A stretch of 49,396 bases of DNA from Desulfobacterales bacterium. GTDB lineage: Bacteria; Desulfobacterota; DSM-4660; Desulfatiglandales; Desulfatiglandaceae. Both the position numbers and the translations under genes were made by a program. Below the pieces are notes generated by a model. The model had not been told where the DNA came from and made no database searches. It worked only from the letters and a program-made list of their open reading frames with translations. Shown here one piece after another: positions 7,441 through 47,569 of this stretch. The stretch lies in NCBI GenBank assembly GCA_014382905.1, contig JACNIU010000191.1:1-49396 (forward strand), read 5' to 3'. How positions within the stretch are numbered: the stretch's first letter is position 1; the number at the start of each line of letters is the position of its first letter.

Positions 7441-7571
7441 ACAAACTCGTAAAAAGTCGGAAAGCACCCGTTGTCGTCATTCCCGCGAAAGCGGGAATCC
7501 AGTAAAATCAACCAGTTCTGGACTCCCGCTTTCGCGGGAGTGACGGCCTTGGAGACTTTTTACGAGACCAT
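7441..7571. repeat. MITE-like palindromic element with 'cgtcattcccgcgaaagcgggaat' core
   Basis: 13-bp terminal inverted repeats ctcgtaaaaagtc (7446-7458) / gactttttacgag (7554-7566); flanking 9-bp direct repeat caaatcatg at 7432-7440 and 7572-7580. Confidence 0.8.
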
Positions 7572-21460: not shown

Positions 21461-21473
21461 AAACGTTTTCCCG

Positions 21474-21850
21474 TAACACATTAGCGGTTTGAAAGAAAGC
21501 CAGTGACCGTGAGGGTCTCTTTCCCAAAGGCCGTAAATAAGTCCCTCATTTCATAGGAACGGCAGCGAGGCTTTAAATTCGTCACAGGACAGCCCCAGAA
21601 TAAGGTATCCATTTAAACGGCTATCGCCTCTGCCTGCCCGGAAACTGTATTCAACGTCAAGGGGGCGTTCTATACCCTCTGGAGAATTTTTGTTACGTCC
21701 TTTGGGAAAGAGACCCTCACGGTCCGGCCTGCCCGCCAATGCCTTTCGCCGCGCATTGCTGGTTCAACCCTTCAGGACGTGTGGCACCTCCCATCAGCAA
21801 CACGTCCAAGAGAGGCGATGGCAGGCGGGCAATCTAATCATGACCGTTTT
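21474..21850 (+). repeat. Dispersed ~290-bp repeat, copy A (with a ~102-bp nested insertion)
   Basis: IR arms tgagggtctctttcccaaaggccgtaa (21510-21536) and ttacgtcctttgggaaagagaccctca (21693-21719); core nearly identical to copies B and D. Confidence 0.93.
21728..21829. repeat. Nested palindromic insertion inside repeat copy A
   Basis: Interrupts the sequence 'ccgg|caatctaat' that is continuous in copies B and C; ends cctgcccgccaatgcc / ggcgatggcaggcggg are imperfect inverted repeats. Confidence 0.75.
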
Positions 21851-21879
21851 CCCTGTTTACTTATTTTTTTACCAAAACT

Positions 21880-25205: not shown

Positions 25206-25368
25206 AACGCCCCAAGGATCCATTCCCCCCTTGGATCAAGAGGTTTGCTTGAAATTTACATATGAAAAATTATTCGTTACCAGCTGCCGGGTATCGGTGT
25301 TTGGAGGGTAGAGTGAACGGTCCCCTGATAACGGATATCCGACAACCGATAAGAACTTAGATACAGGG

Positions 25369-25657
25369 TAACACTTCAGCAGTTTGAAACAAAGCTGGGG
25401 AGCATGAGGGTCTCTTTCCCAAAGGACGTAAATAAGGGGATCGTTTCACAGGAACGGCAGCGAGACCTTAGAATTCGTCACTGGACAGCCCCAGAAAAAG
25501 ATATTCATTTAAACGGACATCGCCTCTGCCTGCCCGGAACCTGTATTCAACGTCAAGGGGGCGTTCTATACGCTCTGGAAAATTTTGTTACGTCCTTTGG
25601 GAAAGAGGCCCTCATGCTCCGGCAATCTAATAAAGACCGTTCTCAAAACGCTAAGCT
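25369..25657 (+). repeat. Dispersed ~290-bp repeat, copy B (immediately upstream of metK)
   Basis: IR arms at 25405-25431 and 25588-25614; core in the same orientation as copies A and D. Confidence 0.95.
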
Positions 25658-25676
25658 GATATGAAAGGAGTTTTAG

Positions 25677-30791: not shown

Positions 30792-30962
30792 TTAACTCTT
30801 CTGCTCTCCGCTGATCCATCTGTCAATGGCATCCTTGTCGAATCGCCAGACCCTGCCAATCCGGATCGCGGGGATTTTACCTTCTGCTGCATACTTACAG
30901 ATTGTAATCTCGTGCAATTTCAAATATTTTGCGATTTCTTTTGTGGTCATGATCTTGGGCAT
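30792..30962 (-). CDS. Small helix-turn-helix (excisionase/HTH_17-type) DNA-binding protein, absent from the supplied ORF track
   Basis: Translation of the reverse strand: MPKIMTTKEIAKYLKLHEITICKYAAEGKIPAIRIGRVWRFDKDAIDRWISGEQKS* (56 aa). Confidence 0.85.
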   Translation of the reverse strand: MPKIMTTKEIAKYLKLHEITICKYAAEGKIPAIRIGRVWRFDKDAIDRWISGEQKS

Positions 30963-31179
30963 AGCAGACTCCTCTATATCTTCTTAACATATTTCGATGG
31001 ATTTCCAAATATGCGTAACAGTGTCAGGCAACTATCAGATAACAAGTTTAATACCGGAAAACTCTAAAGTCAATAAAAAACCTGTTAATCATCAATACTA
31101 AATAAAAAATATCTTAACTTTATAAACTTTATTCGTATTTCGCTTTTCCAAGCTCGCTTCTGACAAATTAAAAATAGAG

Positions 31180-31468
31180 TAACGCTTTAGCAAATGAAAG
31201 AAAGCCGGCAACCGTGAGGATCTCTTTCCCAAAGGACGTAACAAAATTTCTCCTGAGCGTATAGAACGCCCCCTTGACGCTCAATACAGGTTCCGGGCAG
31301 GCAGAGGCGATGTCCGCTTAAATGGATACCTTCTCCTGGGGCTGTCCTGTGACGAATTTTAAGGCCGCACTGCCGTTCCTATGAAATGATCCCCTTATTT
31401 ACGTCCTTTGGGAAAGAGACCCTCACGGTCCGGCAATCTCATCATGACTGTTTTCAAAACGCTGATAC
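31180..31468 (-). repeat. Dispersed ~290-bp repeat, copy C (core inverted relative to its outer ends)
   Basis: IR arms 31214-31240 and 31399-31425; core reads as reverse complement of A/B/D while the outer ~35-45 nt on each side keep the A/B/D orientation; flanking aaaataga at 31171-31178 and 31469-31476. Confidence 0.93.
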
Positions 31469-31625
31469 AAAATAGAAAACTGCCATATACCGGGTTTGGG
31501 CTTGACGATTCTTGGTGTCGTCAGTATATAGGCTCTGGGGGCATGGACTCAGGACTTGCGTCTGCGTTGCACTGAATTTGAAGTGCGTAACCCACTCTTT
31601 TTGCAATGGGACTTTTGACGAGAAT

Positions 31626-39589: not shown

Positions 39590-40336
39590 ATGTCAGGTCA
39601 TTCAAAATGGAGTTCGATAAAGCATAAAAAAGGGGCTGCGGATGCCAGGCGGGGTAAGATATTTACCAAGCACATCAAGGAAATAACCGTAGCCGCGCGT
39701 ATGGGAGGGGGCGATCCGGACGGAAACCCCCGCCTCAGAGCGGCCATTGCCGCAGCCAAGGCAGAAAATATGCCCAAAGAAAATATCGCAAGGGGCATAA
39801 AGAAGGGGACCGGGGAGTTAGAGGGGGTCTCCTATGAAGAGGCCAACTACGAGGGATACGGACCGGGGGGCGTAGCTGTACTTGTGGATTGCCTTACGGA
39901 TAACAAGAACAGGACCGTAGCAGAGGTCAAGCACCTCTTCGAACGCTTCGGCGGAAATCTCGGAGAGCCGGGGTGCGTCGCCTGGATGTTTGAGACAAAG
40001 GGCCTTATCGTGTTCGAAAAAGATAAGGTAGATGAAGAAGAGCTCTTAAACCTGGCCCTCGAGGCTGGTGCTGAAGATATGAATGAAGAAGATACAGAGT
40101 TTGAAGTCGTTACGGCACCGTCTTACTTTGAGCCGGTCAGGAAGGCCATCGATGGCGCCGGTCTCTCTTACACCTTTGCGGAAGTATCCATGGTTCCCAA
40201 GAATACGGTCAAGGTGGAAGGCAAAAAGGCCCAGCAGATGCTGAACCTGATGGAATCCCTCGAAGACCACGATGATGTGAACCGTGTGTACGCCAACTTC
40301 GACATCTCTGACGATGTGATGGAGGCCTTAGGCTGA
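39590..40336 (+). CDS. yebC: YebC/PmpR-family transcriptional regulator
   Basis: [37 protein letters not shown]. Confidence 0.97.
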
Positions 40337-40815
40337 TGCTTGTGCTGGGGGTGGATCCCGGCTCGAGAATTACCGGGTATGGCCTGGTGGAGAAACAGAA
40401 TAATGATATAATCTACGTTGATTCCGGCCTTATCAGGTCCTCCAACAAGACCCCCTTCTACAAGAGAATCCATAAGATATTTGAAACCATGGTGGAAATC
40501 ATGGGCCATTACCACCCACAGGAGATGGCCATCGAAGACCTTTTCTATGCAAAAAACATACAGAGTTCTCTCAAGTTAGGGCATGCGAGGGGTGCCGTGT
40601 TGATTGCAGCGGTTCAATGCGGCATCCCCATCTTTGAGTATACCCCTTTGGAGATCAAGAAATCGGTCGTGGGATATGGGAGGGCCGACAAAGAGCAGGT
40701 TCGGTCCATGGTTCGGGTGATTCTAAGGTTCAAGGGGGACTTGACCCTCGACACCTCTGATGCCTTAGCCACTGCAATATGCCACGTCAACTGGTCAAAA
40801 TTTGAATCGGTGTAA
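40336..40815 (+). CDS. ruvC: Crossover junction endodeoxyribonuclease RuvC
   Basis: [61 protein letters not shown]. Confidence 0.97.
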   Translation: MLVLGVDPGSRITGYGLVEKQNNDIIYVDSGLIRSSNKTPFYKRIHKIFETMVEIMGHYHPQEMAIEDLFYAKNIQSSLKLGHARGAVLIAAVQCGIPIFEYTPLEIKKSVVGYGRADKEQVRSMVRVILRFKGDLTLDTSDALATAICHVNWSKFESV

Positions 40816-41103
40816 CACTTTAGCCGTTTGAAACAAAGCGTTGGACCATGAGGGTCTCTTTCCCAAAGGACGTAAATACGTGGATCGTTTCATAGGAACG
40901 GCAGCGAGGCCTTGAAATTCATCACTGGACAGCCCCAGAAAAAGGTATTTATTTAATCGGACATCGCCTCTGCCTGCCCGGAATCTGTATTGAACGTCAA
41001 GGGGGCGTTCTATACGCTCTGGAGAATTTTTGTTACGTCCTTTGGGAAAGAGACCCTCATGGTCCCAGGCAACAAACGAATAATTGTTTCAAAACGCTAA
41101 AGT
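40813..41103 (+). repeat. Dispersed ~290-bp repeat, copy D, inserted between ruvC and ruvA
   Basis: IR arms 40849-40875 and 41033-41059; flanked by 14-bp direct repeat aatttgaatcggtg at 40799-40812 and 41104-41117. Confidence 0.96.
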
Positions 41104-41122
41104 AATTTGAATCGGTGAGACG

Positions 41123-41725
41123 ATGATTGCCCAACTAAACGGTGTCCTGCTTCAGAAAACAACTCAGTCGATCATCATCGATGTGGGTGGCGTCGGTTAC
41201 GAGGTCTCTGTTCCCCTGTCTACATTTTACGCGCTTCCGGATAGCAGGGAGAGGGTCAGCCTCCAGATCTACACCCATGTCCGGGATGACTCCCTCACCC
41301 TGTTCGGCTTTAACACACGGCTGGAAAAAGATCTTTTTCTGATGCTGATCTCCGTATCGGGGATCGGCCCAAAACTTTCGTTAAATGTCCTCTCAGGCAT
41401 CGGCCCCCAGGACCTGTTGGAGGCCATCGCGAATGGGGATGCGCTGCGGCTTCAGGCGATCCCCGGGGTGGGCAAAAAGACCGCAGAGAGAATCGCCCTG
41501 GAACTGAAAGATCGCGCGTCAAAGGTCCTCGGAGAGGCGGGAATTTCCCGCATCCCGGTCCCTCAGGGGGAGGATCGGGTCATTTTGGATGATTCCCTTT
41601 CCGCCCTCGTGAACTTAGGGTATTCTGCGAAATCAGCCAGGATGGCTGTTGAAAAGGCGAAATCCCGGGTCGAGGAGATGACCTTAGAGGGCCTGATCAG
41701 AGAGGCCTTGAGAATTCTGTCGTGA
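41123..41725 (+). CDS. ruvA: Holliday junction branch migration protein RuvA
   Basis: [63 protein letters not shown]. Confidence 0.97.
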
Positions 41726-46768: not shown

Positions 46769-47569
46769 CTAACCGGGAGAACTCCTTGTTTTATTTATCG
46801 CCACTATTTTTTGTGAAGAAGTTCCCCGAATTTTATCTAAACCTTTGACCGCCTCCAGCTTGTGGCTCGGGGAAGGATGCTGATATCTCATGGCTACTTT
46901 TGCTGTCTTATGACCCATGATCTCCATGATGGTTTTCAGATCAACTCCGTTCATTCCTAACCGACTTCCAAAAGTATGACGCAGATCATGGAAACGAAAC
47001 CGGATCTCATTCCCTCCATCCCACCTGATCAGACCTGCCTTTCTCCTTGCACTATAAAAGCCTCCGGATAATTGGCTTAACCTTTCCCCTTTATGATTAC
47101 AGAATACAAAATCAGATCCCGGTCTTTCCATTCGCCTTTCAAGAATCTCCCTCATGGTCTCGTTTACAGGGACCGGCCTGTCTTGGTGTGTTTTTGTATC
47201 TGTGGCTAATAAATAATTCTCCTTCAAATGGACATTAACCCGCCTTATCCCAAATATCTCAGCCTGTCGCATCCCACTATATAAGGCAAATTCTACAAGA
47301 TCCCTGAGATACCTTTCCGGCTGTCTGATCTTATCACACTCATCCAATAACTTGACCTCTTCCTCTTGACTGAGGACCCACATCTTTTCATTATCCTCAT
47401 GTAACAGCTTGACCTTGGCGATAGGATTGACCTGGAGATAACTCCAATCAACGGCCTTGTTCATCATATTTTTGAGACAAGCCACATCCCTGTTGACCGT
47501 AGCAGGAGACGTGCCTCCCTCTCTCCTGGCCTTCTTATATTGTTCAACCTGAAAGGGATGGATGGACAC
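46769..47569 (-). CDS. Tyrosine recombinase/integrase, apparently truncated at the N-terminus
   Basis: Catalytic residues in SGMRQAEI, FHDLRHTFGSRL, MGHKTAKVAMRYQH; translation begins within the core-binding region (HPFQVEQYKKARREGGTSPATVNRDVACLKNMMNKAV). Confidence 0.88.
   Translation of the reverse strand: MSIHPFQVEQYKKARREGGTSPATVNRDVACLKNMMNKAVDWSYLQVNPIAKVKLLHEDNEKMWVLSQEEEVKLLDECDKIRQPERYLRDLVEFALYSGMRQAEIFGIRRVNVHLKENYLLATDTKTHQDRPVPVNETMREILERRMERPGSDFVFCNHKGERLSQLSGGFYSARRKAGLIRWDGGNEIRFRFHDLRHTFGSRLGMNGVDLKTIMEIMGHKTAKVAMRYQHPSPSHKLEAVKGLDKIRGTSSQKIVAINKTRSSPG

Follow-up and report, generated by a model that had tools for sequence, protein, structure and literature searches.

The window (the whole 49,396-nucleotide stretch of a Desulfobacterales MAG that was analysed here) contains four copies of a repeated element, starting at approximately 21473 (A), 25368 (B), 31179 (C) and 40812 (D). 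They adjoin ordinary genes: tsaD, panC-metK, namZ-clc and ruvC-ruvA. The plan of the element is a short outer arm (S), an inverted-repeat arm (IR2), a core of ~157 bp, the opposite repeat arm (IR2') and a long outer arm (L), ~295 bp in total. Copies A, B and D run, on the plus strand, from S (GTAACACTTTAGCNGTTTGAAACAAAGC) through IR2 of ~33 bp (GGACCATGAGGGTCTCTTTCCCAAAGGACGTAA), the core and the second IR2 arm to L, which reads GTATCACTTTAGC..TTGAAAC.ATCATTCGTTTGTTGCC, or a relative of it, on the minus strand. The features of copy C and the positions of the other copies are as follows.

31171..31178, no strand: left 8-bp target-site duplication of copy C (AAAATAGA), read directly from the sequence; 8-bp duplications occur at many other copies
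31179..31208, plus strand: short outer arm S of copy C (GTAACGCTTTAGCAAATGAAAGAAAGCCGG), from alignment to the left ends of A, B and D
31209..31241, plus strand: left IR2 arm of copy C, from sequence alignment
31242..31398, minus strand: core of copy C, reversed relative to A, B and D (state INV), from alignment
31399..31430, minus strand: right IR2 arm of copy C, from sequence alignment
31431..31468, plus strand: long outer arm L of copy C (GTATCAGCGTTTTGAAAACAGTCATGATGAGATTGCCG when read on the minus strand), from alignment to the right end of B
31469..31476, no strand: right 8-bp target-site duplication of copy C (AAAATAGA), read directly from the sequence
21473..21851, plus strand: copy A, core forward; long arm split by a second palindromic repeat at ~21726-21829
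25368..25662, plus strand: copy B, core forward, between panC and metK homologues
40812..41108, plus strand: copy D, core forward, between ruvC and ruvA; target-site duplication GAATCGGT

Copy C is a complete MITE-like element of ~290 bp (31179-31468). Its outer ends, GTAACGCTTTAGCAAATGAAAGAAAGCCGG on the left (short arm) and CGGCAATCTCATCATGACTGTTTTCAAAACGCTGATAC on the right (long arm), align in the forward direction with the ends of A, B and D, and its interior (31242-31398) is the reverse complement of their cores (90-92% over 153-228 bp). The alignment thus bears out the first-pass annotation, which had described the core of this copy as inverted between outer ends that keep the A/B/D orientation. 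The internal arms, given there as 27 bp, are indeed inverted and slightly longer, 31-33 bp (97% complementary), and folding of copy C as single-stranded DNA gives z = -6.8 versus shuffles. Since the 8-bp AAAATAGA flanks the whole of copy C, the outer arms form the ends of the element, and C went in as a single unit.

Among the other copies, the second palindromic repeat within the long arm of A (21726-21829; GGCCTGCCCGCC..GGCAGGCGGGC) is also present in L049, L054, L062, L077 and L079 and marks a sub-lineage. Copy D lies between the Holliday-junction genes ruvC (40336-40815) and ruvA (41123-41725), and its left target duplication overlaps the end of ruvC.

A DNA search returned matches throughout the 4.56-Mb MAG, many of them with the core and the outer ends on opposite strands, and pattern searches of the same genome found 137 IR2 arms and 65 cores. 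For subsequent analyses 74 genome stretches were retrieved, and each outer arm was classified against the short and the long consensus arms. Terminal inverted repeats (GTAACACTTTAGC / GTATCACTTTAGC) occupy opposite ends of the element. Target duplications are constantly 8 bp long (L053, L055, L057, L066, L078, L083, L084, L095, L100, copies C and D, and others). The dispersed copies carry no transposase gene, and there is no sizeable ORF in copy C. Judged by its size, ends, copy number and target duplication, the element is a MITE. This MITE-like, non-autonomous transposon of ~295 bp has some 70 copies or more, among them copy C. Its transposition would rely on a host-supplied transposase acting on the non-autonomous element. 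IS66 elements have ends beginning GTAA/GTAT and generate 8-bp target duplications. The copies described here resemble IS66-type MITEs in both respects; unlike in that case, the only IS66 transposase of this genome (L117) has no such ends on inspection. IS66 was considered as the parent and set aside, the single transposase having ends unlike those of the element. Among other elements with the same ends, none has a recognised transposase. One of these (L154:519-606) is an 88-bp element with the same GTAACACTTTAGCC ends, an unrelated interior and an 8-bp target duplication (AACTCTTA); it is probably another MITE moved by the same transposase.

The first-pass annotation had pointed to a tally of core orientation over the genomic copies as a check. 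Once run on the 65 core-bearing copies with at least one classifiable arm, and with the core read in the forward sense, the tally gave 33 copies in the order S-core-L versus 32 in the order L-core-S (23 versus 26 when both arms were cleanly classified). A few degenerate copies are of uncertain assignment: L047 was omitted, and L050, L092 and L096 were weakly assigned. The arrangement of copy C is therefore not odd, being that of about half of the copies in the genome. Orientation is scattered over the phylogeny of the copies. On the maximum-likelihood tree of 52 normalised copies it changes at least 16 times (mean for shuffled labels, 17.6), and at least six of the changes are forced by well-supported branches. 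Close relatives are found in opposite states (L099/L100, L061/L066 and L044/L060), and in pairs less than 4% divergent the discordance is 50%, as in all other pairs, although there are only eight such close pairs. The sub-lineage defined by the extra-repeat long arm (X-arm; copy A, L054, L062 and L077) has support of 100/99 and contains both states, three versus one, and the group of L093, L095 and L102 is likewise mixed. Since orientation is scattered over the tree and half of the near-identical pairs differ, it is well supported that the core was inverted many times during the history of the copies. It might be argued that two stable isomers arose early and were both spread by transposition, with no repeated flipping, as whichever isomer is the source gets amplified. 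However, none of the 200 bootstrap trees groups either state as a single origin, and together with the number of changes, the discordant close pairs and the mixed sub-lineage this makes two stable isomers an extremely unlikely account.

Weaker matches were found in 6 of 60 related genomes, one of which (G007) is a match of only 21 bp. The exact IR2 pattern had no match in the genome contigs searched. A gapped two-arm pattern had none in viral contigs and retrieved 49 stretches in named MAGs, all of them deltaproteobacterial: mainly HyVt-30, but also Tobar14m-G14, Meg22_1214_Bin_272 and one Thermodesulfobacteriota MAG. In these relatives conservation extends, to a varying degree, to IR2 and the core motifs GAACGGCAG, GACAGCCCC, CTGCCTG and GGGGGCGTTC, but not to the outer ends (CGACCTGTGCGGTTA in HyVt-30 and TGTCCGGTTAGGATTTTGC in Meg22). 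The IR2 sequence itself varies among genera with both arms changing together, so that the stem pairs covary; this result covers the IR2 stem, the effective number of sequences for the core interior being only 9. HyVt-30 copies also have 8-bp duplications in several cases (AAATGATT in L161, AAATCTTT in L181).

Orientation, again read from the arms, is 3:2 in Tobar14m-G14, 2:1 in Meg22, 1:1 in G019 and 39:1 in HyVt-30. Behind the last ratio lies an automatic assignment in which the major state took 32 full copies and 5 one-sided ones and the other state 1; two copies that it left unclassified are by eye in the major state. The difference between the genome studied here and HyVt-30 is significant (Fisher p = 7e-8, computed with 40:1). 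Core divergence is similar in the two genomes, with mean pairwise values of 7.8% and 11.2% and nearest-neighbour values of 4.1% and 3.8%, so that hosts differ in how fast the core flips or in what becomes of the flips. Two pairs of loci were considered as orthologous insertions with opposite cores, and both were rejected: L113 and L196 adjoin one and the same gene, yet their insertion points differ and their state does not, and the insertion point of L115/L177 is not common to both.

The genome is a MAG of 500 contigs, many of which end within copies. Where the inverted repeat is perfect, a short-k de Bruijn graph might have picked the core orientation at random, and an artefact of this kind would be expected to yield a 1:1 ratio without relation to the tree. 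However, contig ends within copies overlap by exactly 55 bases in one pair, and a second pair shares a 55-base start, which indicates k=55. This exceeds the longest exact IR2 runs inside copies (20-38). Moreover, the 23 copies with IR2 runs of at most 28 are split 12:11, the run in copy C itself is 21, and HyVt-30, despite similar arms, shows 39:1. We thus see only a slight chance that assembly produced the orientations; as a source of the mixture it appears unlikely, with a small residual doubt.

Another question is whether IR2 and the core constitute a separate mobile unit that entered the outer element at a fixed site, in independent events and in either direction. Consistent with this, the outer terminal repeats vary between genera (GTAAC..TTTAGC, and the HyVt-30 and Meg22 ends given above) and IR2-core is conserved, and coreless elements with the same outer arms exist. 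Most of the coreless elements, however, retain parts of IR2 (GGACCATGAGGGTCC in L140 and L141, GGACCATG in L138), which points to hairpin deletions rather than to empty sites. In addition, no free-standing IR2-core was recognised among the retrieved copies, the target duplications lie outside the outer arms, and core and outer arms are linked within sub-lineages that hold both states. Independent insertion, raised in the first-pass annotation as the competing explanation, is accordingly disfavoured, and we regard a separate IR2-core unit as very unlikely. The core-deleted derivatives (L138, L139, L140, L141, L151 and L153) are ~70-88 bp long, their junctions fall on short homologies within IR2 or close to it, and L138 has its own 8-bp target duplication (CTTTGCTG).

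Each flip of the core would be an exchange by way of the ~33-bp IR2 stem. The most likely route is polymerase template switching at the hairpin during replication or, alternatively, RecA-type or cruciform-mediated recombination at the hairpin. The same process would also make one IR2 arm a copy of the other and would sometimes remove the core; deletions are a third common outcome at hairpins. As the element looks alike from either side through IR2, the orientation of the core would probably be neutral and would drift to 1:1. IR2 arms are more similar within a copy (0.979) than between copies (0.943; 0 of 2000 permutations). They are identical over 32 nt in 28 of 54 copies, variants are shared along the whole arm, and in L094 both arms carry several changes private to that copy. 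Much of the sharing of arm variants is at the sub-family level, and the copy-private variants, of which only five occur in both arms versus 17 in one arm, count against this reading. Selection for pairing could contribute to the matched arms. Distances of outer arms and cores are weakly correlated (Mantel r 0.21, with 2 of 2000 permutations as high), which leaves room for exchange between copies. The core is longer by 32 bp in five otherwise distant copies (L063, L069, L070, L073 and L104); in L063 and L104 the insert is palindrome-like (CTCTCCGAGGCGTAGGCTCTACGAGCCAGAGG) and at one place. This shared insert suggests that copies have exchanged segments of their cores.

For polymerase template switching at inverted repeats, two outcomes are documented: inversion of the spacer and homogenisation of the arms (Abraham and Hazkani-Covo 2021, PMC8604942). 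That system resembles the present one in the inverted spacer, in arms made alike and in arm lengths above 9 bp. It differs in that it concerns single, short spacers of a few bases in yeast genes (PMC8604942), whereas here the spacer measures 157 bp and belongs to a bacterial mobile element with dozens of dispersed copies; this far greater length counts against the parallel. A further point against the hairpin view is the 39:1 ratio of HyVt-30, seen despite similar arms and divergence: flipping is not automatic from structure.

A dedicated site-specific recombinase of the tyrosine or serine type could instead flip the core at IR2 in a manner akin to phase variation, acting in trans on all copies. 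Both the 1:1 mixture and the length of IR2 suit an inverton, the contrast between 33:32 and 39:1 would follow from the presence or absence of the enzyme, and tyrosine recombinases are encoded in all five genomes tested. Yet HyVt-30, in which the core is almost fixed, has tyrosine recombinases as well. Serine recombinases are absent from G009, G019 and G023, and both states occur in G009 and G019. A non-systematic look found no recombinase consistently beside the copies, the core shows no evident promoter or gene, and conservative recombination would neither homogenise arms nor delete the core. Bacterial invertons are similar in having a segment between inverted repeats in both orientations. 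They are unlike the present element, for which we see no cognate recombinase and no regulated gene, and which occurs in tens of dispersed copies with arms alike along their whole length. We therefore consider a dedicated recombinase unlikely, though with a real if minor chance of being involved. Arms kept alike, core deletions and the lack of a required serine recombinase fit hairpin-driven rearrangement better than a dedicated invertase, and template switching or recombination through the IR2 hairpin is the cause of the flips that we favour, with some confidence. Of the invertible cassette proposed in the first-pass annotation, the inversion of the core between its arms is well supported; a dedicated, regulated and currently active switch would go beyond the evidence, as no invertase was found tied to any copy and the features are those of hairpin-driven rearrangement.

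Possible functions of the core were also considered. Rfam gave no match in the window at the gathering score and none for copy C at E<=5, and a promoter and terminator search of the core gave one weak promoter-like match and no terminator. Nothing observed shows a regulatory role for core orientation or an effect of it on the host.

The nearest precedent, by description rather than by sequence, is the Correia elements of Neisseria (CREE, nemis). These are short non-autonomous elements present in many copies, with inverted repeats around a conserved directional core and a target duplication (PMC2649163), and they have been reported to undergo inversion (PMC10969869). All of these properties, as well as the size class, are similar here. 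In CREE, however, the repeats are the element's own ends, whereas here the invertible module lies inside separate outer arms that fix the reference direction; also unlike in CREE, the genome-wide orientation ratio here is ~1:1. Within the open-access literature searched, an internal invertible module with reference ends, replicated ~65 times at 1:1 in one genome and nearly fixed in a related one, appears to be new, although an earlier description is possible.

In such a system each copy is a replicate test, in which the asymmetric outer arms give the original direction, the core gives the present one and divergence serves as a clock. The flipping cores constitute a natural experiment on DNA rearrangement by inverted repeats, in which genomes alone suffice to measure how fast and by what mechanism inversion proceeds. 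The contrast of 33:32 with 39:1 points to a host factor that can be searched for. It also follows that the core direction of a MITE is not usable as evidence of separate insertions. A broader proposal, which we consider rather doubtful, is that IR2-core is a conserved genome-wide invertible module that persisted through several genera as its outer transposon ends were exchanged for others, with a flip rate set by a host factor (near-random here, near-frozen in HyVt-30). The module would act either as a switch dispersed over many copies or within the life cycle of the element.

Three other features of the window may be mentioned. Adjoining copy C, on the minus strand (30792-30962), is a 56-aa ORF that, judged by eye only, resembles an excisionase-type helix-turn-helix protein (MPKIMTTKEIAKYLKLHEITICKYAAEGKIPAIRIGRVWRFDKDAIDRWISGEQKS). 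A tyrosine recombinase of the phage integrase family (266 aa) is encoded on the minus strand at 46769-47569. Finally, a separate 28-bp inverted repeat (CGTCATTCCCGCGAAAGCGGGAATCCAG) at 7475-7545 is of a kind common in many proteobacterial genomes.
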